Positions 2,332 through 18,348 of a stretch of 64,000 nucleotides of DNA are shown here, one piece after another. The position numbers and the translations under genes are program-made. Source of the DNA: Eubacteriales bacterium. GTDB taxonomy: Bacteria; Bacillota; Clostridia; Oscillospirales; Butyricicoccaceae. Each line of letters starts with the position of its first letter. Within the stretch, counting starts at the first letter, position 1. A model generated the notes under the pieces. The model did no database searches. It was given only the letters and a program-made list of their open reading frames with translations, and had not been told where the DNA came from. The stretch is from assembly GCA_030539335.1 (NCBI GenBank), contig JAUNSG010000007.1, positions 1 through 64,000 of the forward strand. The letters run 5' to 3'.

Positions 2332-3750
2332 TCAATTTAAAGCAATCACGCCAATGACATCAATTCCTTGCAAGGAACAAACTTCTAGCGATCTCTCAAT
2401 ATCAGTATACATTGTTTTTTCTTTTTCTACTACAAAAATAATACCATCCATTGATTTCGCTTTCTCCAGCGCAGCAGTATCACGATCCACATATCGGGCT
2501 ATTGTAATGGAAGAACATATTGTCTCCAGTTTTCCAATCTCTCTAGCCGCTTCTGTGTTCAAATCCTCACAACAAAGCATAACCTGCTTTACACCAATTA
2601 GAGAAATTGTTTCTGCAATATAATCTATTGTTTCAAATCGAATATTTCCAGATTGGTATACGTTTTCAATAAAACCATCAATCCCTTTTCTCGCTTTCTT
2701 AACATGCAGAATCCCTAGGATTGGAAGTTGGTATCGTATTTTAACTTCATCAATGGTTTTAATATGCTTATCCAATACATAACTTGCAATTAGAACAATC
2801 CCCCACAAACAACATAATACAAGAACACCGATGATTAACCATTTCAGCTTACTTCCCGAAAAAGTTGCCATCTGGATAGCCGTTACTTCTTTATTCAAAT
2901 AAGTAATCTGATAATACTCCAGATCCTTATCAATAAAACCACTCTCTAAAGAATTAAAATTATTTGCATATGTCTGTAAATAATCAATATTGGTCTTTTG
3001 CTGTGATAAGTAAGACGAACTAACTGTTAAAACAACAGAACTTCCCAATTGATTGCAGGTAAATGCTCCATATTCTTTTTGCAGTGTATCATTCAGTACA
3101 TCTGCCTTTTGTTGAATTACATCAAGCATTTTCTGACATGCATCCTCATCAAAATAATTCACAGTATAAGTGACGACAACATTTTTAGTTGAGGGTGTGG
3201 TACCATCCTCTGCACTTGAAATATTCACAGAAGAATCATTATCCGAATTGACATCACATCCAATTAACTCCCGAATATATTGCGCATCACATTCTGCATC
3301 AGCTGCGTTTTTCAGTTCCTCAGTTAAATCCGGATCATTTAGAAGACTATTAAACTGCTCTCCAATCAGTCGAGTACTTGCCCCTGCCGCAACATAATAT
3401 TTGAGTTTTCCATTGTACACATGCTCTGCATCCATCTGCATAATCAACGAGTTCTCGTTATACGAAAGCTGCTTGTTATAGGCCTGTCGATTCTGCCAAG
3501 CAAGATCCATCTTCGATTTCATCTCAGTAGAAACCTCATAGGTTTCTACCCAATTACTCTGCTCTGTAGACGCAGCAGCACTTTTTTCGAAAGCGGTCTT
3601 TTTTACAACATAAATACCACCGCCAAGAAGCGCCCCCAGAACAATCATAATGAGCAACGATCTCCAATGACGGATCAAATAGAAAAATAAATCCTTTATA
3701 TCAATTTCCACTTCATCGTCATATATCTTTGTGTAATTCTCATTCATCAT
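2332..3750 (-). CDS. Wzz/YveK-like polysaccharide chain-length protein with a kinase-like but Walker-less tail
   Basis: 472 residues. The first 30 are cytoplasmic. A membrane helix follows at about 31-50 (LLIMIVLGALLGGGIYVV), then a long extracytoplasmic region with coiled-coil character, and a second helix at about 300-320 (WLIIGVLVLCCLWGIVLIAS). This is the CpsC/Wzz plan for controlling polymer length. The remaining roughly 145 cytoplasmic residues end in DGIIFVVEKEKT and GIDVIGVIALN, which resemble the end of bacterial tyrosine kinases (CpsD/YwqD), but no Walker A motif is present, so it is probably not an active kinase. The start has AGGAGAGAG just upstream. It follows the sugar transferase by 11 bases in one operon. 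Confidence 0.78.
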   Translation of the reverse strand: MMNENYTKIYDDEVEIDIKDLFFYLIRHWRSLLIMIVLGALLGGGIYVVKKTAFEKSAAASTEQSNWVETYEVSTEMKSKMDLAWQNRQAYNKQLSYNENSLIMQMDAEHVYNGKLKYYVAAGASTRLIGEQFNSLLNDPDLTEELKNAADAECDAQYIRELIGCDVNSDNDSSVNISSAEDGTTPSTKNVVVTYTVNYFDEDACQKMLDVIQQKADVLNDTLQKEYGAFTCNQLGSSVVLTVSSSYLSQQKTNIDYLQTYANNFNSLESGFIDKDLEYYQITYLNKEVTAIQMATFSGSKLKWLIIGVLVLCCLWGIVLIASYVLDKHIKTIDEVKIRYQLPILGILHVKKARKGIDGFIENVYQSGNIRFETIDYIAETISLIGVKQVMLCCEDLNTEAAREIGKLETICSSITIARYVDRDTAALEKAKSMDGIIFVVEKEKTMYTDIERSLEVCSLQGIDVIGVIALN

Positions 3751-3761
3751 TCTCTCTCCTA

Positions 3762-5231
3762 CTATCTCGCGCCGCTCCCTCGGAATACAACTGCAATTGT
3801 TTTAAAGATAATTTTAAAATCCTCCAAAATCGACCAGTTATCAATGTACTCCAGATCCAGCTTTACAATCTCATCAAAATCAGTAATATCACTGCGACCG
3901 CTGACCTGCCACAAGCCCGTTATGCCTGGACGGAAACTGATGCGTCGCTTCTGATAATAACTATATTGCTGATACTCATCCACCGTCGGCGGACGAGTAC
4001 CGACTAAGCTCATATCTCCCTTTAATACGTTCCAGAACTGCGGCAATTCATCAATGCTGGTCTTACGAATAAAGGCTCCTATCTTGGTAATACGCGGATC
4101 GTTCTCCATCTTAAACATTAAGCCCGACATTTCGTTTTGTGCCATCAGCTCTTTTTTTCGCTCTTCCGCATCAGCATACATGGACCGGAACTTATAGAAT
4201 TTAAAAATGCGTCCATTTACACCCACTCGGTTCTGACAGAAAACCAATGGCCCCGGTGATTCAATCAGCAAAAAGGGAGCTAGAATAATACCAATCATTA
4301 TGGTAAGTATTAACCCTACAATCGCACCAGCGATATCAATCAAACGCTTCAAAACTACCATGCGATAATCAAATAGTCGGCTGGAGAACGCAATAACCGA
4401 ATACTCCTCCAGTTTATAGACTTGCTTATCTCCGCGCTTATCCAGTTCAAATAGATCAAGGCTGAGATTAACAACCACGCCCATCTTTTCAAACTCTAAA
4501 ATCAGTGTTTTTAAATAGTTCTCACGCGTTTGAATTTCATCAACATGGATGAATACTTCATCAACAACATGGAGGGTTGCATATTCCAGACAGGCATCCG
4601 GTACATCCGGGATAACTGGAATGCCTCGAATGCTATTCTGCCGATCCGTTTCTCCAAGCAATAAGATTCCCGGGATATTCCAATGCACTTCTTTAGAATT
4701 TCCAAATCGATCCAATATTTCGTTAATCCGATCTGATGTTGTGACAATTAAAAGATTATTTTCTTTTCGAAGCTTTCGATTGACATACTTAACGGTCTGA
4801 TTAACAATCCACATAAAAATAGTATTCAATACAAAGAAGTATCCCATAACCAAACGGGAAGTAAACACTTCATTTTTCATACTGAATCCAAGGAAAACCG
4901 ACAAGATCACCAGAATAAAGTTAAACTTAACCGAAAATATGAACTCTGCTTTATAATTTCTCCGATAAAAATCATCGTACGATTTCAATACATAGAAAAC
5001 GGCAATATGTAGAATAATAACTACGCTAAATAGGCTCACCAAGTTTTCTCTGCGGGCTAGCCTTTCAAAACTCTCATATCGAATCAAGCCAGCAATCAAC
5101 AAACTACACAATACAGCAACCAGATCGAGCAGACAAACTGCCAATTCGATAATTTGCTTTTTTCTACGATACATACCTTCACCAACTATTTCTTCTCTTC
5201 TTAATACTCCAATAGTTTGAATTTTATACAA
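3762..5231 (-). CDS. Polyprenyl-phosphate sugar-1-phosphate transferase (WbaP/CpsE type), first step of exopolysaccharide synthesis
   Basis: 489 residues from a TTG start (preceded by AAGGA); an internal ATG at 5174 is an alternative start. The N-terminal half has four or five membrane helices and a CoA-binding-like domain. A further helix (GAIVGLILTIMIGIILAPFLL) leads into the bacterial sugar transferase domain, with FYKFRSMY, RITKIGAFIRKTSIDELPQF, LVGTRPP and RPGITGLWQVSGRS. This family transfers a sugar-1-phosphate to undecaprenyl phosphate and so begins the repeat unit. It is the first gene of the minus-strand cluster behind a good promoter at 5282-5309. The sugar is not predictable. Confidence 0.9.
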   Translation of the reverse strand: MYKIQTIGVLRREEIVGEGMYRRKKQIIELAVCLLDLVAVLCSLLIAGLIRYESFERLARRENLVSLFSVVIILHIAVFYVLKSYDDFYRRNYKAEFIFSVKFNFILVILSVFLGFSMKNEVFTSRLVMGYFFVLNTIFMWIVNQTVKYVNRKLRKENNLLIVTTSDRINEILDRFGNSKEVHWNIPGILLLGETDRQNSIRGIPVIPDVPDACLEYATLHVVDEVFIHVDEIQTRENYLKTLILEFEKMGVVVNLSLDLFELDKRGDKQVYKLEEYSVIAFSSRLFDYRMVVLKRLIDIAGAIVGLILTIMIGIILAPFLLIESPGPLVFCQNRVGVNGRIFKFYKFRSMYADAEERKKELMAQNEMSGLMFKMENDPRITKIGAFIRKTSIDELPQFWNVLKGDMSLVGTRPPTVDEYQQYSYYQKRRISFRPGITGLWQVSGRSDITDFDEIVKLDLEYIDNWSILEDFKIIFKTIAVVFRGSGAR

Positions 5232-5281
5232 ATTCGCACATCCTTGTTGTATAAAATCGACAAAAGGAGTTATCTCTCAAT

Positions 5282-5309
5282 ATTATACCATAAAATCCTT
5301 ATCTTGCAA
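5282..5309 (-). promoter_or_regulatory. Promoter of the exopolysaccharide operon
   Basis: On the minus strand TTGCAA (5304-5309) and a perfect TATAAT (5282-5287) are separated by 16 bases. They lie about 50 bases before the sugar transferase start, as expected for a housekeeping sigma factor. Confidence 0.65.
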
Positions 5310-5450
5310 CAGAAATTGACAATAAAATGCTGTGTTGCTCAAATCCGCTCTTCTTTTGCTTTATACATCGATAAACAAACAAAATAAGTTCTTAAAGATC
5401 AACTCATGCTGTAACCAACACAACTACATGTATAAAATCCAGTTGCGCAA

Positions 5451-5504
5451 GAAAAAGAACCCGATTATTTCGTGAGCATTCTCCGAATTTCAATCGAGTT
5501 CTTT
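5451..5504 (-). terminator. Terminator after the dehydratase-like gene
   Basis: A 13-base inverted repeat (5454-5466 with 5492-5504, one G-U pair) lies just past the stop of the 5514-6770 gene and is followed by a short T-rich tract on the minus strand. Confidence 0.55.
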
Positions 5505-5513
5505 TCTGCTGTC

Positions 5514-6770
5514 TTATTCCGCTGCTGATAACATCAATTTAATTCGGTTCTCCTGATTGATGCGTGATGCTCCCGGATCGTAATCGACACTGACGATATT
5601 CGCTTCGGGATATATTTCACGAATCTTACGAACCATGCCCTTTCCGGCAATGTGATTCGGCAGACAGCCAAATGGCTGTGTCAGAACTATATTTTTTACC
5701 CCTTCGTTGATTAACTCAACCATCTCACCTGGCAGCAGCCAACCTTCTCCCATCTTAACACCTGGGCTGATGACCTCCATTGCCAGTTTACGAACCTCTT
5801 CAAACGGCATCGGTGCCCGGAAATGTCCATCACGACGAATAATTGTGATCATATCCTTCTGCTTCGAACGCAGAAAAAAATAAAATCCACGCATAACCGA
5901 TGCAATTTTTGCCGAGCGTCCATAAAGTTTATTGTCATAAATATGGTTCAGAATCCAGTACATACAGAAATCAATCAATCCCGGCAGCACTGGCTCCGTC
6001 CCCTCACTGAGCAGGAATTTTTCCAGATTATTATTGCCAAGCGGCGAGAATTTGACATAAATCTCACCAACAATGCCAACCTTTGGTTTGGATCCAAAGT
6101 CCTTCAGCTCAATCTGAGCAAAACGCTTGACAATAAGTGCCATAAGCGTGCGAACCTTATGATATCGAAGGATCTTCTCTTTGGCAAAATCCGAAGAAAT
6201 CTTTTTTATCAGCTCGTCAGACGCACGCTCCGCATCGCCTTCGTGAACCACATACGGGCGGCACTGGTTATAAAGCTGCATAATCAAATCACCCAGCAAC
6301 GCACCATATCCGATTTGAATAATCATCGGAACCGTGATCTTAAAGCCTGGATTTTCGTTCTTTTCCAAGCCGGAAAAGTTCAGCGAAACCACCGGAACAT
6401 AGTCGTAGCCCAGCTTAATCAACGCTTTTCGCAGCAGATAGATATAGTTTGATGCACGGCAGCCGCCGCCAGTCTGCGGCAACATCAGGGCAACTTTATG
6501 CGTATCATATTTGCCGGACTCCAGCGCATCAATCAGCTGGCCGATAACGAGCAACGCTGGATAACAAGTATCATTGTGAACATTTTTTAGTCCAGTCTCC
6601 GCAATCTGTGGTCCTTCTGTCTCCAAAACCTCCATATGATAGCCAAAATTATCCATTATGGCAAGGATCAGCTTAATCTGGATCGGAAGCATGTTGGGCA
6701 CCAGAATGGTATACTCTTTTCTCATCTCCTCCGTGAAAGAAACACGTGGGAGCTCACGACTTTCTGACAT
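5514..6770 (-). CDS. 2-hydroxyacyl-CoA dehydratase-like protein (C-terminal part of the large activase family)
   Basis: 418 residues. Cysteines in NDTCYPALL, QTGGGCRASNY and TQPFGCLPNH are placed as in the D-component-like region at the end of the large 'acyl-CoA dehydratase activase' proteins of Clostridia. In those relatives this region is often fused behind two ASKHA domains and a DUF2229 domain. Here it is a separate reading frame overlapping the upstream activase gene by 17 bases, so the two are probably made together and may form one complex. The known family activates or carries out radical dehydration of 2-hydroxyacyl-CoA; the substrate of this large subgroup is not established. A terminator follows. 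Confidence 0.78.
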   Translation of the reverse strand: MSESRELPRVSFTEEMRKEYTILVPNMLPIQIKLILAIMDNFGYHMEVLETEGPQIAETGLKNVHNDTCYPALLVIGQLIDALESGKYDTHKVALMLPQTGGGCRASNYIYLLRKALIKLGYDYVPVVSLNFSGLEKNENPGFKITVPMIIQIGYGALLGDLIMQLYNQCRPYVVHEGDAERASDELIKKISSDFAKEKILRYHKVRTLMALIVKRFAQIELKDFGSKPKVGIVGEIYVKFSPLGNNNLEKFLLSEGTEPVLPGLIDFCMYWILNHIYDNKLYGRSAKIASVMRGFYFFLRSKQKDMITIIRRDGHFRAPMPFEEVRKLAMEVISPGVKMGEGWLLPGEMVELINEGVKNIVLTQPFGCLPNHIAGKGMVRKIREIYPEANIVSVDYDPGASRINQENRIKLMLSAAE

Positions 6771-9720
6771 GGTTTCGTCTCTCCTCTACGGCAGCAATCA
6801 TGCTGCGGATTCGAATCTTGGCCGCGCCAAGGTTATTAATTTCATCAATCTTAAGCTGCGTATAAATCTTGCCGCTTTCCTCGGTAATCGAACGCATCTC
6901 ATCGGTGGTAATGGCATCAATACCGCATCCGAAGGATACCAACTGTATCAGCTGTGCATTGTCCTTATGTGCGACATAGTTGGCAGCAGCATACATGCGG
7001 GAGTGGTAGGTCCATTGGTTAAATACATTTAACTCCGGCACCTCGCTCAGGGAGGCAACCGAGTCCTCTGACACGATCACCATACCATACGACTGGATGA
7101 GGCGATCGATGCCATGGTTGATCTCCGGGTCAACATGATACGGACGACCGGCAACGACAGCAATTTCCAGGCCATTTTCATCGGCGTATGCAATCGCCTG
7201 GCGTCCTGCCTCAGCAACTTCGGAATAATATCGCTCCAATTCTTCAAAGGCATGAAGAATGGCCTTCTTCACCATGCGCTTATTGATATGCTCATACTTC
7301 TTCGAGAAATAGTCTCCGGCGAGACGAATAAAGTCCTTCTTGCGATCCGGCTCAAAGTACGGCATCATAAAATCAACGTTGCGCAGATGCGGCATATTTG
7401 CATAGAGCAGTTCCGGATAGTACGCAACCACCGGACAATTATAACAGTTGGAGGCGCGATGCTCATCCAAATTGTAGGTCATACACGGATAGAAAATTGC
7501 GTCAACGCCCTTTTGCAGCAGATTCTCAATGTGTCCATGCATCAGCTTTGCCGGATAGCAAACCGTATCCGACGGGATCGAATTCTGTCCCAATGCATAC
7601 AGCGAACGGGTAGAAACATCCGACAGAACAACTTCAAATTCAAGGTCTGTGAGCAGGGTGTGCCAGAAAGGCAGCAGCTCAAACATATTTAACCCGAACG
7701 GAATGCCAATTCTGGCCTTGCCCGGACGGCTTCGATCCTGATAAGAAAGCAGCTTATTCAGCTTAAAGTCGTATAAGTTCGGCAGCTTCAGCTTATCACC
7801 GCCACCCAACGGACGTTCACAGCGGTTGCCGGAGATAAAGCGGCGTCCGCCCGGGAACTTGGAAACCGTCAACGAACAGTGGTTGGTACACATACCACAG
7901 CGAACCGAATTGGTCTCATGAGTAAATGTTTCCAGCTCTTCCAGACCGACCAGCTTGGTCTTCTCCGGACAATTTGCCATCGCATGCAGAGCCGCACCGT
8001 ATGCACCCATCAAGCCGGAAATCGCCGGACGGGTTACATTCCGGCCAACCTCCATTTCAAACGAACGCAGAATGGCATCGTTCAGGAAGGTACCTCCCTG
8101 TACTACGATGTGCTTGCCCAGATCATCCGGAGAATGGGCTCGGATAACCTTATACAGCGCGTTCTTAACTACACTGACCGACAATCCAGACGAAATAGCA
8201 TCAATTCCAGCGCCATCCTTCTGCGCCTGCTTGACCGACGAGTTCATAAATACCGTACAACGGGAGCCCAGATCAATTGGATGCTCCGCAAACAGTCCCA
8301 GACGGCAGAATTCCTGTACACTGTATCCCATCGAACGGGCAAACGTCTCAATAAACGAACCACAGCCGGACGAACATGCCTCATTCAGCGAAATATTATC
8401 AATACAATCGTTTGCAATCTTAAAACACTTAATATCCTGGCCGCCGATATCAATAATAAAATCGACATCCGGCTCAAAATGTTTTGCCGCTTTAAAGTGT
8501 GCCATGGTCTCAACCAGGCCAAAATCCACGCCAAACGCATTGTAAATCAGCGATTCCCCGTAGCCGGTAACCGCCGCCGCACGGATTTTTACGCGGTCAC
8601 CGCACAGTCTATACAGCTCCATGAGCTGTTCACGTACAACATCCACCGGGTTGCCTTTGTTCGGGCTATAATAGTTGAACAACAGCTGTTTATCGGCGCC
8701 GATTAACACCAGCTTTGTGGTTGTCGACCCGCAGTCAATGCCAAGATAGGCATCCCCCGAATAAACAGTGACGTTTTCGCGCATAATATCGGTAGAATTA
8801 TGACGACGGCGAAATTCCTGATATTCCTGCTCATTGCGGAACAGCGGATCGAGCGTCGCCGCTGCAACTTTGACGCCGGCAGCCTTCTGCAGCGTATCCA
8901 AAAGCTCCTCATAACGATATGTGGTCGTTGTATTTTCCTCCGCATAACACGCGGCGCCAGCCGCAATGGCATACGGTGCGAGATCCGGGAAATGCGCATG
9001 TTCATCGCTCAGTCCCAGCGTCTCCTGGAATCGCTTCTGCAAACCTTTGAAGAAGAACAGCGGGCCGCCCAAAAACAGGACATCGCCCTCAATCTCACGG
9101 CCCTGAGCCAATCCGGTCAGGGTCTGGTTGACAACCGCCTGGAAAATCGATGCCGCAACATCCTCTTTGCGCGCACCTTCATTCAGCAGCGGCTGAATAT
9201 CACTCTTGGCAAAGACGCCACAACGGGAAGCGATGGTGTACAAGCGCTCCGAGTGCTGTGCCAGTCGATCCAGATCCGCAGACGTGACATCCAGTAAAAC
9301 AGCCATCTGATCGATAAACGCACCCGTGCCTCCGGCGCAGGTACCGTTCATACGTTCCTCCAGCTGGCCGGTCAGAAAGACAATTTTGGCGTCCTCGCCG
9401 CCCAGCTCGATTACAACATCCGCAGCCGGTACAAAACGGCCAACACATTTTCTCGTTGCAAATACTTCCTGCACAAAATCTATGCCGCTTGCCTTCGCGA
9501 CACCGAGACCTGCCGAACCGGTAATTGCCACGCGGAGGACAGCATCGCCAATAATCTTCTTGGCATCCATCAGCATCTCGCAGGCTTTCTCACGTACTTT
9601 TGAGAAATGGCGCTCGTATTTCTTGTACAGTATTTCTGAACGATCTGTCGCTTTGTTCTTGCCAACTGCAACCAGTTTGACAGTGGTCGATCCGATATCA
9701 ATTCCTAAATACACATTCAT
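6754..9720 (-). CDS. Acyl-CoA dehydratase activase-like protein: two ASKHA ATPase domains plus DUF2229-like region
   Basis: 988 residues. The first BcrAD/BadFG ATPase domain (about 1-260) has YLGIDIGSTTVKLV and GTCAGGTGAFIDQM, whose cysteine is the usual iron-sulfur ligand. The second (about 322-590) has LGIDCGSTTTKLV and NEACSSGCGSFIE. A cysteine cluster (CGMCTNHC, then NRCERP) follows near residue 620, and then a DUF2229-type region with PSDTVCYPAKLMHGH and FYPCMTYN. Archerases of this family use ATP to push an electron to a dehydratase. The gene has its own promoter and is coupled to the dehydratase-like gene by a 17-base overlap. The physiological substrate is unknown. Confidence 0.85.
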   Translation of the reverse strand: MNVYLGIDIGSTTVKLVAVGKNKATDRSEILYKKYERHFSKVREKACEMLMDAKKIIGDAVLRVAITGSAGLGVAKASGIDFVQEVFATRKCVGRFVPAADVVIELGGEDAKIVFLTGQLEERMNGTCAGGTGAFIDQMAVLLDVTSADLDRLAQHSERLYTIASRCGVFAKSDIQPLLNEGARKEDVAASIFQAVVNQTLTGLAQGREIEGDVLFLGGPLFFFKGLQKRFQETLGLSDEHAHFPDLAPYAIAAGAACYAEENTTTTYRYEELLDTLQKAAGVKVAAATLDPLFRNEQEYQEFRRRHNSTDIMRENVTVYSGDAYLGIDCGSTTTKLVLIGADKQLLFNYYSPNKGNPVDVVREQLMELYRLCGDRVKIRAAAVTGYGESLIYNAFGVDFGLVETMAHFKAAKHFEPDVDFIIDIGGQDIKCFKIANDCIDNISLNEACSSGCGSFIETFARSMGYSVQEFCRLGLFAEHPIDLGSRCTVFMNSSVKQAQKDGAGIDAISSGLSVSVVKNALYKVIRAHSPDDLGKHIVVQGGTFLNDAILRSFEMEVGRNVTRPAISGLMGAYGAALHAMANCPEKTKLVGLEELETFTHETNSVRCGMCTNHCSLTVSKFPGGRRFISGNRCERPLGGGDKLKLPNLYDFKLNKLLSYQDRSRPGKARIGIPFGLNMFELLPFWHTLLTDLEFEVVLSDVSTRSLYALGQNSIPSDTVCYPAKLMHGHIENLLQKGVDAIFYPCMTYNLDEHRASNCYNCPVVAYYPELLYANMPHLRNVDFMMPYFEPDRKKDFIRLAGDYFSKKYEHINKRMVKKAILHAFEELERYYSEVAEAGRQAIAYADENGLEIAVVAGRPYHVDPEINHGIDRLIQSYGMVIVSEDSVASLSEVPELNVFNQWTYHSRMYAAANYVAHKDNAQLIQLVSFGCGIDAITTDEMRSITEESGKIYTQLKIDEINNLGAAKIRIRSMIAAVEERRNHVRKS

Positions 9721-9980: not shown

Positions 9981-11471
9981 TTATTGATTTATTTTCCGGT
10001 TTTCCTTCTTTAAAATACGCTGAACCGCAAATTTCCCCTCGATCGCCGCGCCTGGCAGTCCGCCTGGCGGGCTGAGCCACTGCCCTGCCAGAACAACATT
10101 GCCGACACCGGAAAGATACGGTGAAGGACTGCTGTTGCCGCTTCCCTTCGTCGGCACAAATGCCTGATTGTATCCTTTATAGGCGTTGCAGTATCGTTCA
10201 TACGTGACCGATGTCCAGCAATCCAGGAGGCGCAGACGCTTTTCATACATCGGAAACCGACGCTCGATCTTTCCCATCAAACGAACGGCAATCGCAATCT
10301 TTGTCTCGCGATATACCTCCGGCTTCTGATATAATGTCTTCCAAAATTCATAACCAGCCTCCTGCATCGGCAGAAGCACCTGAATAATCTGCTTACCTTC
10401 CGGCGCAAACGATGGCTCATACGCATAAGTTTTGACCGTCATACGATCGCCCATCCACGGATAATCCTCCAGATACGGTGTTTCCATCATCGTTTCAGTA
10501 TCCACGGCATTCGCCTCCATTTCCACGGCAAAGGCAGCCTGGAACATGCCATAAATCGGATAGGCCTCCCGGTTTTCATGAAATTCCCGAATGACCGGAT
10601 CGCTGTAGTTTCCATCCAGAAGATGTTCGTAGGTAAAGTTCAGGTCACAAGCCGGAATAATATAGTCCGCCGGAATCATCCTGCCGTCCTCCAGCTCTAT
10701 GCCCTGCGCGCGTCCTTCCTCGATCACAATCCGTCTGGCTGGACGGCTGCAATACAATTTGCCGCCCAGATCGGTAAAGGTCTGCGCGACGCGCAGCGCC
10801 ATCGCACGGGAACCGCCCCGCGGCAGTCCCCCATCGCCCGCTGCAAAATTGCCATATGCCATCGGGAACGAATACGCCATGGATTCCTTTGTGCAGAAAT
10901 CCGACAGCATACAACGAATCAACGGGTGTTTGAATTTCGCCATCAGATCGCCGGTATCCATCTTCGCATAGTGCTGAAACAGCTTGATGGCCGGACGGGA
11001 AGAAAACGCCAGCTTGGTCAAATCCAGAGGCTTCATCAGTTCGGAGGGCTTGTCCGCCGGAATGGTAACCTTCTTCGCCAAACTGCAATGATCCATCAGG
11101 TCGTTGATCTCATCGGTATCCTCCGGAGACAGCTTGAGAAGTTCCTTCCGGGTGCGTTCGATGTCCTTCCATAACGTGATCTGCTCTCCCGCCAGTTCGG
11201 AACGATACATGCTTTTGAGCGGTACGAGGCCAACCGAATCGTCAATCGCGCCAATCGTCCGCCAAATGCGGTTTAACGCCGTCTTTCCCGTACAGCCCAC
11301 CATCCAGTGGATGCAGTTGTCAATGTGATACCCTTTCCGGTCCCATCCGGTACACTCTCCGCCTGGAATGGCATTCTTTTCATAAATCTCGACATCAAAT
11401 CCACACTTTTTCGCATAAATCCCCGCCGTCATGCCGGAGATCCCCGCACCGACAATTACAATTTTCTTCAA
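9981..11471 (-). CDS. Phytoene desaturase-like (CrtI family) FAD-dependent oxidoreductase
   Basis: 496 residues from a TTG start that has an excellent AGGAGGTGA five bases before it. An in-frame ATG 45 bases upstream falls inside a hairpin and is unlikely to be used. The N-terminus KKIVIVGAGISGMTAGIYA is the dinucleotide-binding fold, followed by VEIYEKNAIPGGECTGW. The C-terminus LAGQWLSPPGGLPGAAIEG is the CrtI-type FAD-binding end. Such proteins in gut Clostridia are annotated as phytoene desaturase-like or all-trans-retinol saturase-like, but no carotenoid genes lie nearby, so the substrate is open. It lies downstream of the adenylation enzyme on the same strand, with a hairpin between. Confidence 0.82.
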   Translation of the reverse strand: MKKIVIVGAGISGMTAGIYAKKCGFDVEIYEKNAIPGGECTGWDRKGYHIDNCIHWMVGCTGKTALNRIWRTIGAIDDSVGLVPLKSMYRSELAGEQITLWKDIERTRKELLKLSPEDTDEINDLMDHCSLAKKVTIPADKPSELMKPLDLTKLAFSSRPAIKLFQHYAKMDTGDLMAKFKHPLIRCMLSDFCTKESMAYSFPMAYGNFAAGDGGLPRGGSRAMALRVAQTFTDLGGKLYCSRPARRIVIEEGRAQGIELEDGRMIPADYIIPACDLNFTYEHLLDGNYSDPVIREFHENREAYPIYGMFQAAFAVEMEANAVDTETMMETPYLEDYPWMGDRMTVKTYAYEPSFAPEGKQIIQVLLPMQEAGYEFWKTLYQKPEVYRETKIAIAVRLMGKIERRFPMYEKRLRLLDCWTSVTYERYCNAYKGYNQAFVPTKGSGNSSPSPYLSGVGNVVLAGQWLSPPGGLPGAAIEGKFAVQRILKKENRKINQ

Positions 11472-11503
11472 GCCGTCACCTCCTGACTTTCTCCCCACAA
11501 AGA

Positions 11504-11540
11504 GTGTAGTTCCCATCCCCTATTGGGACGGAAACTACAC
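11504..11540 (-). terminator. Hairpin between the adenylation and CrtI-like genes
   Basis: A long imperfect stem, GTGTAGTTTCCGTCCC with GGGATGGGAACTACAC (G-U pairs), occupies the 11472-11567 gap. The T-tract is poor on both strands, so it may be a weak terminator or a processing site rather than a full stop. Confidence 0.4.
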
Positions 11541-11567
11541 GACTTCTTTTCGTATAAACCGGTGCAA

Positions 11568-13013
11568 TCAGAGCTGCGCCAGACGAACACGATCCAGTTT
11601 TCCCTTGTCATTCATCGGCATGGAGTCCAAAATCCGGACAATCCCCGGGATCATATACTGCGGCAGGAACTGACGGGCCGCCATGCGAATCTGTCCCGGT
11701 GTCATCTGCTTCTCCTTATCCAGCGTGACATAGGCAACCAGATGGCCGTATTGTACAATTACGCCGCAGGCAATGACGCCGTCAATGCGGCAGATATTGA
11801 TTTCAACATCACTGGATTCCAGACGATAGCCGCCAACCTTTACCTGGGAGTCCTTACGGGCAATCCAGTACAGCTTTCCTTCCCGGACAACGCCGATGTC
11901 TCCGGTCCGGTACGCACGTTTGCCGTCAATCTCACAAAATCCTCCAGTCGAACCATCCGTATATCCGGCCGTAACGCTCGGGCCAATCAGAACGATTTCG
12001 CCCTCCGCGCCATCTTCCAGGATGATGTCCTCGTTCTGATCCATCACCGCGATCTGTGTTGCTCCCTGATTCATATCACCAATCGGGATCGGAGCCTCGC
12101 ACATCTCCTTCGTAATTACGCAGGAGCAGACATTACAGGTCGCCTCGGTCGGGCCATATGCATTGATGATAGTGACATCCGGAAAACGCTCGTACAAAGA
12201 ATGCGGCGTCGTGCGATGCAGCGCCTCGCCCATCAAATAGATGACTTCCAGAGCCGGCATCAGTGCCTTGTTAAAGTTCTTTCGTTCCAGACAGAACTCG
12301 GCAACCGACGGGGTCGTAACAATAACATGCGGATTTACCGTCTGGAAATGGCGGAACAGCGTCGTATGATCTTCCTTCAGCTCCTGCTCGGTCATAATCA
12401 ATGTATGACCGTGCGTCAGAGCATAATAAATATCAACCATCGAGTGGTCAATCGAAAGCATCGACATATTCAGCACACGGCCTGGTGTTTCGGACAGCGT
12501 GAAGGCCGTATCTACCCAGTGGATAAAGTTGTTCAGGTTATCACGAGTCGCCTCAATACCACGTGGGATACCGGACGCGCCGGATGTAAAAATTACATAC
12601 GCCAGTGAGCTTCCGTCAATCTCCTCCGGAAGAAGAACCTTGGTTTCCGGCGGATTCTGTGACAGCTTCTTAATGTTCTCTTTCGGGATTTTGTTGGAGC
12701 CGGAGAAACCGCGCCCTATAGCACATAGAACCAAATCCGCGTGCGATGCCTCTGCGATATCAACCAGACGGTCGTGCGGCAGTCCGGTACTGCATGGAAT
12801 ATAGGTTGCTCCCGCACGCAGGCAGGCGAGAAACGCAACCAGCATCATACATTCCTTGTGCCCATAGACCAACACGCGTTTGGTTCCCCGGTGAACGAGT
12901 TCCTTCGCCAGATTCTCACTTCGGCTGTAAAGCTCCCCATACGTCATGGTTTCCCGCAGGGAGCGACATGCAATCTGCGATTCCGGATGGGTAAAGATCG
13001 AAGAAATATCCAT
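11568..13013 (-). CDS. Stand-alone AMP-forming adenylation enzyme (DltA/NRPS A-domain-like)
   Basis: 481 residues with the adenylation core motifs in order: A3-like YVIFTSGASGIPRG at 139-152, A5-like NAYGPTEATC, A7 YRTGD, A8-like KVGGYRLESSDVE and the C-terminal NDKGKLDR lysine. Length and motifs fit DltA-type D-alanine ligases or free NRPS A domains, which load an amino acid onto a carrier protein. No carrier protein, DltB or DltD is encoded in this window, so the partner must lie elsewhere or the enzyme makes a free acyl adenylate or thioester. It has its own promoter (13083-13111), divergent from the SAM riboswitch, and may be co-transcribed with the CrtI-like gene. Confidence 0.8.
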   Translation of the reverse strand: MDISSIFTHPESQIACRSLRETMTYGELYSRSENLAKELVHRGTKRVLVYGHKECMMLVAFLACLRAGATYIPCSTGLPHDRLVDIAEASHADLVLCAIGRGFSGSNKIPKENIKKLSQNPPETKVLLPEEIDGSSLAYVIFTSGASGIPRGIEATRDNLNNFIHWVDTAFTLSETPGRVLNMSMLSIDHSMVDIYYALTHGHTLIMTEQELKEDHTTLFRHFQTVNPHVIVTTPSVAEFCLERKNFNKALMPALEVIYLMGEALHRTTPHSLYERFPDVTIINAYGPTEATCNVCSCVITKEMCEAPIPIGDMNQGATQIAVMDQNEDIILEDGAEGEIVLIGPSVTAGYTDGSTGGFCEIDGKRAYRTGDIGVVREGKLYWIARKDSQVKVGGYRLESSDVEINICRIDGVIACGVIVQYGHLVAYVTLDKEKQMTPGQIRMAARQFLPQYMIPGIVRILDSMPMNDKGKLDRVRLAQL

Positions 13014-13205: not shown

Positions 13206-13346
13206 ACCCTTATCAAGAGAGGTGGAGGGAGCGGCCCTATGAAACCCGGCAACCTGCAAATGCAAGGTGCCAATTCCGACGGTGTACAGATCGAGAGATG
13301 AGGAAACCAGATCACGCTCTGTCCATCGGACAGGCGTTTTTTATTT
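13206..13346 (+). ncRNA. SAM-I (S-box) riboswitch with terminator
   Basis: The leader has the S-box core: TATCAAGAGAGGTGGAGGGA, then GGCCCTATGAAACCCGGCAA, then GGTGCCAATTCC and AGAGATGAGG. An intrinsic terminator follows (stem 13315-13336, then six T). SAM binding should favour the terminator and lower metK expression, the classical feedback loop. The 3' part of the aptamer overlaps the likely antiterminator strand. Confidence 0.95.
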
Positions 13347-13396: not shown

Positions 13397-14578
13397 ATGG
13401 CAAAATACTTATTCACTTCAGAATCCGTTACGGAAGGCCATCCGGATAAAATCTGCGACCAGATTTCGGATGCCATCCTTGATAAAATCCTTTCTCAGGA
13501 CCCCACAGCACGTGTTGCGTGCGAGACGACGGTTACGACCGGTGTTATCTCTATCATGGGAGAAATCACGACCAGCGCCGTCATTGATATTCCGGATATC
13601 GCCCGCGGTGTTGTCCGTGACATCGGCTATGACCGTGCAAAATACGGCTTTGACTGCGATACCTGTGCGGTAATGACCACTCTGGACAAGCAGTCCCCGG
13701 ATATCGCGATGGGCGTCAACTGCGCCCTGGAAACCCGCAATGGCGGACAGAGCGATCTGGACGTCGGTGCCGGCGATCAGGGCATGATGTTCGGTTATGC
13801 CTGCGATGAAACCCCGGAACTCATGCCGCTCCCGATTTCTCTGGCACAAAAGATGGCAAAGAAACTGACTGAGGTACGCAAGAACGGGATGTACCCTTAC
13901 CTTCGTCCGGACGGCAAGACACAGGTAACCGTAGAATACGATTCCAATGACAAGCCGATTCACATTGACACCGTTGTGCTTTCCACGCAGCATGATCCGG
14001 CGGTTACTCTGGAACAGATCCGCAAGGATATGATCGCCAATGTCATCACTCCAACTCTTCCGGACAGCCTGTTCGATGAGAACACCCGCATTTTTGTCAA
14101 TCCGACCGGCCGCTTCGTCGTCGGTGGCCCGCAGGGCGATTCCGGATTGACCGGACGCAAGATCATCGTTGATACTTACGGGGGTTCCGCTCCGCACGGC
14201 GGCGGTGCATTCTCCGGTAAGGACCCGACCAAGGTAGACCGTTCCGCTGCCTATGCCGCACGCTACGTTGCCAAGAATATCGTTGCGGCCAAGCTGGCCT
14301 CCAAGTGCCAGATCCAGCTCGCCTATGCCATCGGCGTAGCACAGCCGGTTTCCATCCGTGTTGACACCTTCGGCACCGGTACGGTAGCCGACGACGTTCT
14401 GGCCGATGCCGTTTCCAAGGTATTCGACCTTCGTCCAAGCGCAATCATCCGTGATCTGGATCTGCGCAAGCCGATCTACCGTCAGCTCGCCGCTTACGGT
14501 CATATGGGACGCACTGATCTGGACGTTTCCTGGGAGAAAACCGATCGTATTGACGCTATTCTGGCTGCTGTAAAGTAA
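13397..14578 (+). CDS. metK: S-adenosylmethionine synthetase
   Basis: 393 residues, the normal length. It makes SAM from methionine and ATP. Signatures include [20 protein letters not shown] at the start, [16 protein letters not shown] (ATP-binding hexapeptide GAGDQG), [20 protein letters not shown] and [20 protein letters not shown] strong AGGAGGAACAAGCA ribosome site precedes the ATG. Expression is controlled by the SAM-I riboswitch just upstream and the gene is monocistronic, ending at the 14620 terminator. SAM made here also links to the MTA/5'-deoxyadenosine salvage genes at 48-50 kb. Confidence 0.98.
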
Positions 14579-16857: not shown

Positions 16858-16886
16858 TTGTTATTTCAGAAAAAATCCATTATACT
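16858..16886 (+). promoter_or_regulatory. Promoter of the Ser-Gly-Ser-Tyr repeat operon
   Basis: TTGTTA (16858-16863), a 17-base spacer and TATACT (16881-16886), 34 bases before the ATG at 16921. Confidence 0.65.
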
Positions 16887-16920
16887 GAAAACAGTATATT
16901 TCAGCAAGGAGTGCTGCCCC

Positions 16921-17460
16921 ATGGCGGAAAAAAAGAAAGCCATCCAACCAATTTGCAAGGTATATCCGGGAACACGCATGCTCAACGGCTGCGCTATGGA
17001 TGCTGCCAGTTACGAACGCCATATGAAGGCACAGGAGGCCATGTCGGCACCGGCACCGGTTATTCAACCGACAAAACCGCAGCCATACGATCCGTTTGCA
17101 CAACAACAGGATTTCCGCGCTATTGCTGCAAAAGCCTTCGAGGATGATCGCGCAGCACTGCAGCCAAAGACAACGGCTGCCCCTGCTGTCCAGTATCGTC
17201 CGGGAACGACACAGTACGTCACACAGGAACAGAAAACCGTTCTTCTGCCACAGGAGACGGTTGTCGGGGAGCAGATGGTTCTGACCGGTTCGGGATCCTA
17301 TCTGACCTCGGGATCTTATGTGCTGACTTCTGGTTCCTACTTATTCTCTTCCGGATCTTACCTCACTTCGTCCGGTTCCTATTGGATGGGGTCCGGCTCC
17401 TATACTACGTATGGCTCGGACATGCATTTGCTGGGCGGATACGGTTTGGATTTGATTTGA
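16921..17460 (+). CDS. Protein with tandem Ser-Gly-Ser-Tyr repeats; unknown function, possible modification substrate
   Basis: 179 residues from the ATG with AAGGAG ten bases upstream; a longer frame exists but covers the promoter. I do not recognise the family. There is no signal peptide or membrane helix. The N-terminal 40 residues (IQPICKVYPGTRMLNGCAM) hold the only two cysteines, C12 and C24. A Pro/Gln/Ala-rich middle follows, then six SGSY units at 124-127, 130-133, 137-140, 144-147, 151-154 and 158-161, mostly every seven residues with hydrophobic residues between. The stop overlaps the next start (TGATG), so both proteins are coupled. The layout suggests a leader or scaffold plus a repeat core acted on by the glycosyltransferase-like partner; that is inference. 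Confidence 0.75.
   Translation: MAEKKKAIQPICKVYPGTRMLNGCAMDAASYERHMKAQEAMSAPAPVIQPTKPQPYDPFAQQQDFRAIAAKAFEDDRAALQPKTTAAPAVQYRPGTTQYVTQEQKTVLLPQETVVGEQMVLTGSGSYLTSGSYVLTSGSYLFSSGSYLTSSGSYWMGSGSYTTYGSDMHLLGGYGLDLI
17287..17412 (+). repeat. 21-base imperfect tandem repeats encoding SGSY-x-x-x
   Basis: Codons for residues 123-164 of the repeat protein. Six units vary at the DNA level (for example TCGGGATCCTAT, TCCGGATCTTAC, TCCGGTTCCTAT) while SGSY is kept, which suggests selection on the protein. Codon use varies among copies, so it is not a very recent expansion. Confidence 0.75.
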
Positions 17461-18314
17461 TGCGCGCGTTCCATACGTTTTGGTCGCGCCCGTTTTCCAT
17501 GGCCCATCCGGGACAACCCCTGTCTTTAACCGATTACGATTTGTTCGGTACCATCCTGTCGGCTCTTCAGTGGCGCCGCAGGAATGGTTCCATTCGGCTG
17601 GTTACCGACCGTATGGGAGAACGTTATTTTTGTGCATATGGTCTGGATTTTTTGTGGGATGACGGGATGGAGGTCATATTGGATCACATTCCCTATTCGG
17701 TTGACCCCTCTACGTTCTGGGCGGCCGGGAAGCTCTATGCCCTCCGTGCGATGCATGCTCCCTGTGTGATGCTGGATACCGACTTTATCCTCTGGGAGGA
17801 TCTTTCCGCGCCCCTTTCTTCCTCTGACCTCGCAGTGATTCACCGGGAGGAATTAAATCCGGATATCTATCCTGACCCGCGGCACTTTCTCTGTGCAGAA
17901 GGCTACCATTTTCCGGATGGCTGGGATTTCACGCAACCGGCTTGCAATACGGCTTTTTGCTACTTTGGTTCCGAGACACTGCGTCAGGAATATGTACAGC
18001 AGTCACTGGATTTTGTGGAGGCCTCACGCGGACGCCATCCGCTGTATTATATGGTATTCGCAGAACAGCGACTGCTTGCCATGTGTGCCGTACAAAATGG
18101 ATACACCATCGACAGCTTGGCCGCACTCCCCGCGTTGTTTTCCGGACAAACGTACTTTACCCACCTTTGGGGCTATAAACAGCTCCTGCAAAAGGACCCC
18201 GAGGAACGGAGACGGTTTTGCCTTCGCTGTGCCCGGCGCATCACTGCAGATTTTCCGGATGCCGTGGCCCGCTGTGCGATTCATCCCTTGCTTCGCCCCT
18301 ACTTCATTTCTTAA
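17460..18314 (+). CDS. GT-A-type glycosyltransferase-like protein (resembles DUF6734), partner of the repeat protein
   Basis: 284 residues; the ATG overlaps the stop of the repeat gene by one base. It starts MRAFHTFWSRPF, has SIRLVTDRMG near 44-53, and FWAAGKLYALR (86-96) ten residues before VMLDTDFILWEDL (103-115). The DTD at 106-108 looks like the metal- and nucleotide-sugar-binding DxD of GT-A glycosyltransferases (GT8/GT32-like), and THLWGYK near 234-240 could supply a further ligand. I recall this layout from the uncharacterised DUF6734 group, but this was not searched. There is no signal peptide, so it should act in the cytoplasm, most simply on the coupled repeat protein. Its activity is unproven. 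Confidence 0.65.
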   Translation: MRAFHTFWSRPFSMAHPGQPLSLTDYDLFGTILSALQWRRRNGSIRLVTDRMGERYFCAYGLDFLWDDGMEVILDHIPYSVDPSTFWAAGKLYALRAMHAPCVMLDTDFILWEDLSAPLSSSDLAVIHREELNPDIYPDPRHFLCAEGYHFPDGWDFTQPACNTAFCYFGSETLRQEYVQQSLDFVEASRGRHPLYYMVFAEQRLLAMCAVQNGYTIDSLAALPALFSGQTYFTHLWGYKQLLQKDPEERRRFCLRCARRITADFPDAVARCAIHPLLRPYFIS

Positions 18315-18321
18315 ATCTTTC

Positions 18322-18348
18322 AAGAACAGTCAACCGGCTGTTCTTTTT
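18322..18348 (+). terminator. Terminator of the repeat-protein operon
   Basis: AAGAACAG (18322-18329) pairs with CTGTTCTT (18338-18345) and is followed by T residues, closing a two-gene transcription unit. Confidence 0.8.

Follow-up and report, generated by a model that had tools for sequence, protein, structure and literature searches.

The window analysed here is a stretch of 64,000 nucleotides from a member of the Butyricicoccaceae (contig JAUNSG010000007.1). It contains two joined genes: the first encodes a protein rich in Ser-Gly-Ser-Tyr repeats (protein A), the second an enzyme resembling glycosyltransferases (protein B). This arrangement raises the question of whether B places sugars on A and, if so, on which residues, by what means of recognition and for what purpose.

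Organization of the locus

Both genes lie on the forward strand, with the stop codon of A and the start codon of B sharing one base in TGATG (Table 1). The reading frames confirm the protein lengths and the stop-start overlap given in the original prediction, which had also assigned the unit a promoter and a terminator of its own; both are present. The same 1-nt overlap, a coupling geometry, is found in 30 of 49 homologous loci. By promoter and terminator scan alone, such sites are no commoner than in shuffled sequences; across the 49 loci, a TTGC/TTGT-17-TATAAT promoter with 17-nt spacing recurs 5′ of A in nearly all cases. The A-B promoter is of the housekeeping (sigma-A) type with a conserved 17-nt spacing, and no sigma-E or sigma-K type sites were found upstream of A in these loci. 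A palindrome, TATACTGAAAACAGTATA, overlying the -10 box was considered as an operator and dropped, because the nearest relative (L062) lacks it. An Rfam search near the promoter gave no match.

The pair is flanked by genes that, by reading, encode a DEAD-box helicase upstream, and a DeoR-type regulator and a 1-phosphofructokinase downstream. Elsewhere in the window, a SAM riboswitch (13207-13304) lies directly 5′ of a metK-like gene at 13397, and the reverse strand at 9981-13013 encodes a phytoene-desaturase-type FAD oxidoreductase beside a free-standing adenylation-domain enzyme.

Table 1. Positions, within the window, of the features of the A-B locus and what each assignment is based on.
Feature	Position	Strand	Basis
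Promoter TTGTTA-17-TATACT, vegetative sigma type	16858..16886	+	promoter scan; recurrence in homologous loci
Gene A, SGSY repeat protein, 179 aa, without signal peptide	16921..17460	+	ORF, homologue alignment
Conserved N-terminal motif of A, NGCAMDAASYERH; family form GVVFDLDSYxRH	16984..17022	+	homologue alignment
Six SGSY units of A, probable acceptor region	17290..17403	+	shuffle test; homologues conserve SGSYxxS or TSYx
Tail GGYGLDLI of A, probable docking tag for the transferase	17434..17457	+	near-invariant in A proteins
Gene B, DUF6734 glycosyltransferase (predicted), 284 aa	17460..18314	+	Pfam PF20508, E 2.8e-12; modelled GT-A fold
K91 of B, catalytic-type Lys	17730..17732	+	conserved in homologue alignments
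DTD motif of B (D106, D108), predicted metal and nucleotide-sugar binding	17775..17783	+	invariant aspartates
N163 of B	17946..17948	+	invariant in homologue alignments
E202-Q203 of B, in place of GT8 DQ	18063..18068	+	Q203 invariant or nearly so
H235-L-W-G-Y-K240 of B, counterpart of GT8 HxxGxxK	18162..18179	+	H235 nearly invariant
Intrinsic terminator hairpin, 10 pairs, z -3.95	18322..18345	+	hairpin scan

Predicted fold and active site of protein B

B belongs to the Pfam family DUF6734 (47.1 bits against a cut-off of 27), whose function is unknown and of which our literature search found no mention. Searches of plasmid and phage records gave no match for B, and PHROGs and PADLOC gave none for either protein. 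At the level of sequence, Pfam GT8 did not match B, hhalign against three GT8 proteins returned no significant score, and profile searches of PDB sequences (profiles A1 and A2) yielded chance matches only, none of them a glycosyltransferase. The fold assignment therefore rests on a structural model. AlphaFold2 was run on an alignment that combined viral relatives with a single bacterial one (L002), and the model reached a pLDDT of 88 and a pTM of 0.87; a model from the single sequence (pLDDT 34) was discarded.

In a Foldseek search with this model, glycogenins head the PDB matches (E from 4e-6, probability 1.00), and 101 PDB chains match at E ≤ 0.001, those listed being GT-A enzymes. With VIA-align, glycogenin scores a Z of 13.5 over 220 residues, the bacterial GT8 galactosyltransferase LgtC 12.6, and UGGT, WbbM, LARGE1 and others about 12, where differences of less than 1 count as ties. 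As glycogenin and LgtC are thus tied, the safe statement for B is a predicted GT-A fold of the GT8 type.

The active site agrees with this assignment. K91, D106/D108, N163, Q203 and H235 are conserved among homologues down to about 22% identity, and we take them to be the counterparts of the Lys/Arg, DxD, Asn, Gln and His found in glycogenin and LgtC. The GT8 residue set is thereby represented in B together with the modelled GT-A fold and invariant DxD aspartates, the last motif (HxxGxK) being one residue shorter than the HxxGxxK of GT8. The DTD motif had been placed correctly at residues 106-108 in the original prediction, and its reading of B as GT-A-like agrees with both predicted fold and active-site residues; an unrelated fold was not seen. 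We consider the reading of B as a GT-A glycosyltransferase, with a predicted fold of the GT8 type, to be well supported by the model and these residues.

The likeness to glycogenin thus covers the modelled fold, the DxD motif and the Lys, Gln and His residues, at a sequence identity of about 10%, and would extend to the glycosylation of a protein in the cytosol. It ends at the acceptor, which here would be a separate, many-site protein whose repeat tyrosines are not conserved. LgtC-type enzymes share with B the modelled fold and the active-site set. LgtC acts on lipooligosaccharide, whereas B is paired with a protein.

Repeats, pairing and C-terminal tail of protein A

The SGSY units of A start at residues 124, 130, 137, 144, 151 and 158, i.e. 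at spacings of 6, 7, 7, 7 and 7, in line with the six copies predicted at mostly seven-residue intervals. When the C-terminal 60 residues were shuffled 100,000 times, six copies never arose (mean 0.1, maximum 3). The six copies use different codons, and it is therefore the protein sequence that is kept. In the N-terminal motif, G23, D27 and S30 are invariant among homologues. The predicted lack of a signal peptide holds as well: A has no hydrophobic N-terminus and no transmembrane stretch (maximal 19-residue hydropathy 0.62), and it ends in its tail without the signal peptide and wall anchor of serine-rich repeat glycoproteins.

Homologues of A carry 3 to 18 repeat units (median 5), with a period of 6-7 (SGSYxxS) in the genus of the window and mostly of 4 (TSYx) elsewhere. 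In 85% of 408 cases the residue before the aromatic one is Ser, while the aromatic position itself is Tyr in 64%, Phe in 30% and Trp in 6%. Since the Ser is conserved but the Tyr is often replaced by Phe or Trp, Ser and Thr are the likelier acceptors; the conserved hydroxyl is the one on Ser, plus Thr in TSYx. Of the two acceptors originally proposed, conservation thus favours Ser and makes Tyr unlikely, with 36% of the aromatic positions being Phe or Trp.

B is found in 50 of the 87 genomes of the family to which the window belongs (6 of 15 genera). In 49 of these 50, A lies immediately upstream, overlapping or adjacent; in the fiftieth, a contig edge cuts A, and its tail GGYGLNLI is still visible. 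A search with the A profile returned the same genomes plus one contig-end case (G026) and otherwise a single negligible match. Apart from contig ends, A without B does not occur in this sample. Thus, the pair is conserved and the repeat number varies, the two points that the original prediction had named for checking, and the case that would have spoken against a partnership, namely repeat genes occurring mostly alone, was not encountered. We found no earlier report of such a gene pair in a literature search.

Beyond this family, in a second family of the order (f26), B is preceded by a repeat protein of the GSY/GSF kind that ends in the tail GYGIHLI and whose N-terminal domain is quite different (CLWINGxKV...GYYLGGSLxxWL). 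These A-type proteins (L136-L151) also have EYEYEYE stretches, and Pfam gave no match for their N-terminal domain. In one genus of f26 (g137) the repeat protein is not immediately beside B; for the B of L142, no neighbouring repeat protein was found. A gene for an FkbM-type methyltransferase (PF05050; L071:4176-5333 and equivalents) is a divergent neighbour of the pair in several genera, whereas in the genus of the window it lies elsewhere; it may act on the same glycan.

The main new element, absent from the first reading of this DNA, is the GYGLxLI tail. In almost all A proteins the last residues follow G(Y/F)G(L/I)xL(I/V), and the DNA pattern for the tail plus stop codon occurs at a single place in the genome of the window, inside A. 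Similar ends are found on other proteins encoded directly before a B homologue. In a Succinivibrionaceae metagenome-assembled genome (L002), a Ser/Thr kinase (3736-5946; Pkinase match, E 1e-29) ending in GRGYGLDLIDDEGVG directly precedes a DUF6734 gene (5986-6842), and in a distant member of the phylum (L186, G812:C1:783000-796000) a 350-aa protein ending in SGSGFGGYGLELIDAR directly precedes a B homologue. The transferase reading frame is broken in both loci, which may reflect decay or assembly error and makes them weaker examples as working systems. Further on in the L186 locus there is a gene for a coiled-coil protein, and one for a large protein containing the Hsp70-like stretch FGTKSTVV.

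Among viral relatives of B, four are preceded by proteins that are not clearly related to each other and end in SYLYNNLGIIGEI, SYQYGTLNMIGTL, SYGYGNRIVGEI and YYYNGSMKMIGTIGLF; as further cases of the tail, these are only suggestive. Some viral homologues have no tailed neighbour. In L176-L179, the viral proteins encoded before position 5001 share a Ser/Tyr/Gly-rich end, e.g. NGSYGYGNRIVGEI, and on one viral contig (L152:3189-6766) a tail-fibre-like gene (phrog_7389) is followed by a tandem pair of DUF6734-type genes. Because one short end is found on unrelated proteins just before the transferase, we read it as a docking or acceptor tag. The tail of A probably guides the transferase.

Candidate roles of the A-B pair

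Taken together, the observations support the general reading of a glycosyltransferase acting on a repeat protein, and a modification of A by B is strongly suggested. We think it reasonably probable that the pair is a dedicated cytoplasmic protein-glycosylation unit. In such a unit, A and B would be made from one message with A just before B, and the strict pairing points to A as the substrate. The C-terminal GYGLxLI of A would dock on B, as suggested by the tail also ending unrelated proteins whose genes come before those of B homologues. B would then place a sugar on the Ser or Thr of the SGSY/TSYx units, the conserved aromatic residue serving as a recognition element. The outcome would be a soluble protein that is glycosylated at multiple sites and lacks an export signal, expressed from a housekeeping-type promoter, and its most likely role would be that of an intracellular scaffold or a primer for glucan building.

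The priming role can be put more specifically: B would start glucan chains on A as their protein core, and the glycogen synthase GlgA would extend them. The modelled structure of B, which matches glycogenins best, and the cytosolic, multi-site nature of A are consistent with this, although LgtC is tied with glycogenin in Z and Phe or Trp occupies many of the repeat positions. Of the 50 B-positive genomes of the family, 49 carry GlgA; of the 37 B-negative ones, 30 lack it by a strong-match criterion. The sole B-positive exception (G031) is 80% complete, and 4 of the 7 B-negative genomes with GlgA are incomplete and belong to B-positive genera. In the order sample, all 45 B-positive genomes have GlgA, but so do 324 of 394 genomes (82%) overall. 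In addition, the co-occurrence within the family tracks clade boundaries at a deep split, the FkbM-type neighbour gene shows much the same distribution, and no glg gene is a conserved neighbour of the pair in 16 loci. Bacterial GlgA is also described as able to initiate chains unaided (Ugalde 2003, as cited in PMC8116748), with priming by GlgA in Agrobacterium as an example (PMC8116748). A Tyr residue of a protein can serve as the starting point of a glucan in bacteria (PMC10901819); the primer with Tyr694 is one large, self-modifying membrane enzyme, unlike the two-protein A-B pair. We therefore regard this form of priming as unlikely. Its extension, a two-protein counterpart of glycogenin in which B starts a storage glucan on the multi-site primer A and the tail is a general address acquired by other proteins including the kinase, appears distinctly unlikely. 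The genome of the window has two glycogen synthase genes (G000:C21:61146 and G000:C22:78770), the usual number in the genus.

Other roles differ in what becomes of A after modification. Repeats rich in Ser, Gly and aromatic residues might associate with themselves, the sugars added by B controlling assembly; S/G/Y/F repeats may resemble self-assembling low-complexity proteins. The low complexity of the repeats, their copy number of 3-18, and a weak beta-roll and one pentapeptide-type match among the homologues would fit, and we hold this role to be possible though doubtful. A glycoprotein of the cell surface or spore coat, which would be exported or assembled once glycosylated, has a precedent in the serine-rich repeat adhesins, which are O-glycosylated on Ser/Thr and, like A, are Ser-rich repeat proteins with their own glycosyltransferases, in that case GtfA/GtfB (PMC6973325). 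Unlike A, which has neither signal peptide nor anchor, the adhesins leave the cell through accessory Sec and are held at its surface by an anchor, and no accessory Sec genes were seen beside the pair in 16 loci. The conserved sigma-A type promoter, with no sigma-E or sigma-K site, led us to set the spore-coat idea aside. GtfA/GtfB are enzymes of a different type from B. A surface role is accordingly very improbable, and the surface-glycan scaffold of the original prediction, for a protein without signal peptide or transmembrane stretch, is unlikely with it. The prediction had also named a glycosylated peptide natural product, i.e. A as the precursor of a glycocin-like RiPP. The leader-like N-terminal part and conserved tail of A recall such precursors, whereas the lack of a conserved exporter or protease near the pair (16 loci), the absence of a cysteine-rich core, the very variable repeat number and the presence of the tail on a kinase leave this proposal with hardly any likelihood.

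A dedicated cytoplasmic glycosylation unit would be of wider interest. In bacteria, a glycogenin-fold enzyme that glycosylates proteins in the cytosol and has a dedicated partner would be an unusual case; no glycogenin homologue has been detected in prokaryotes (PMC8116748). DUF6734, a family without a described function or substrate, would gain a function class and an obvious substrate. Finally, the tail points to a rule by which a short C-terminal sequence would mark the protein that is modified by the transferase of the next gene.
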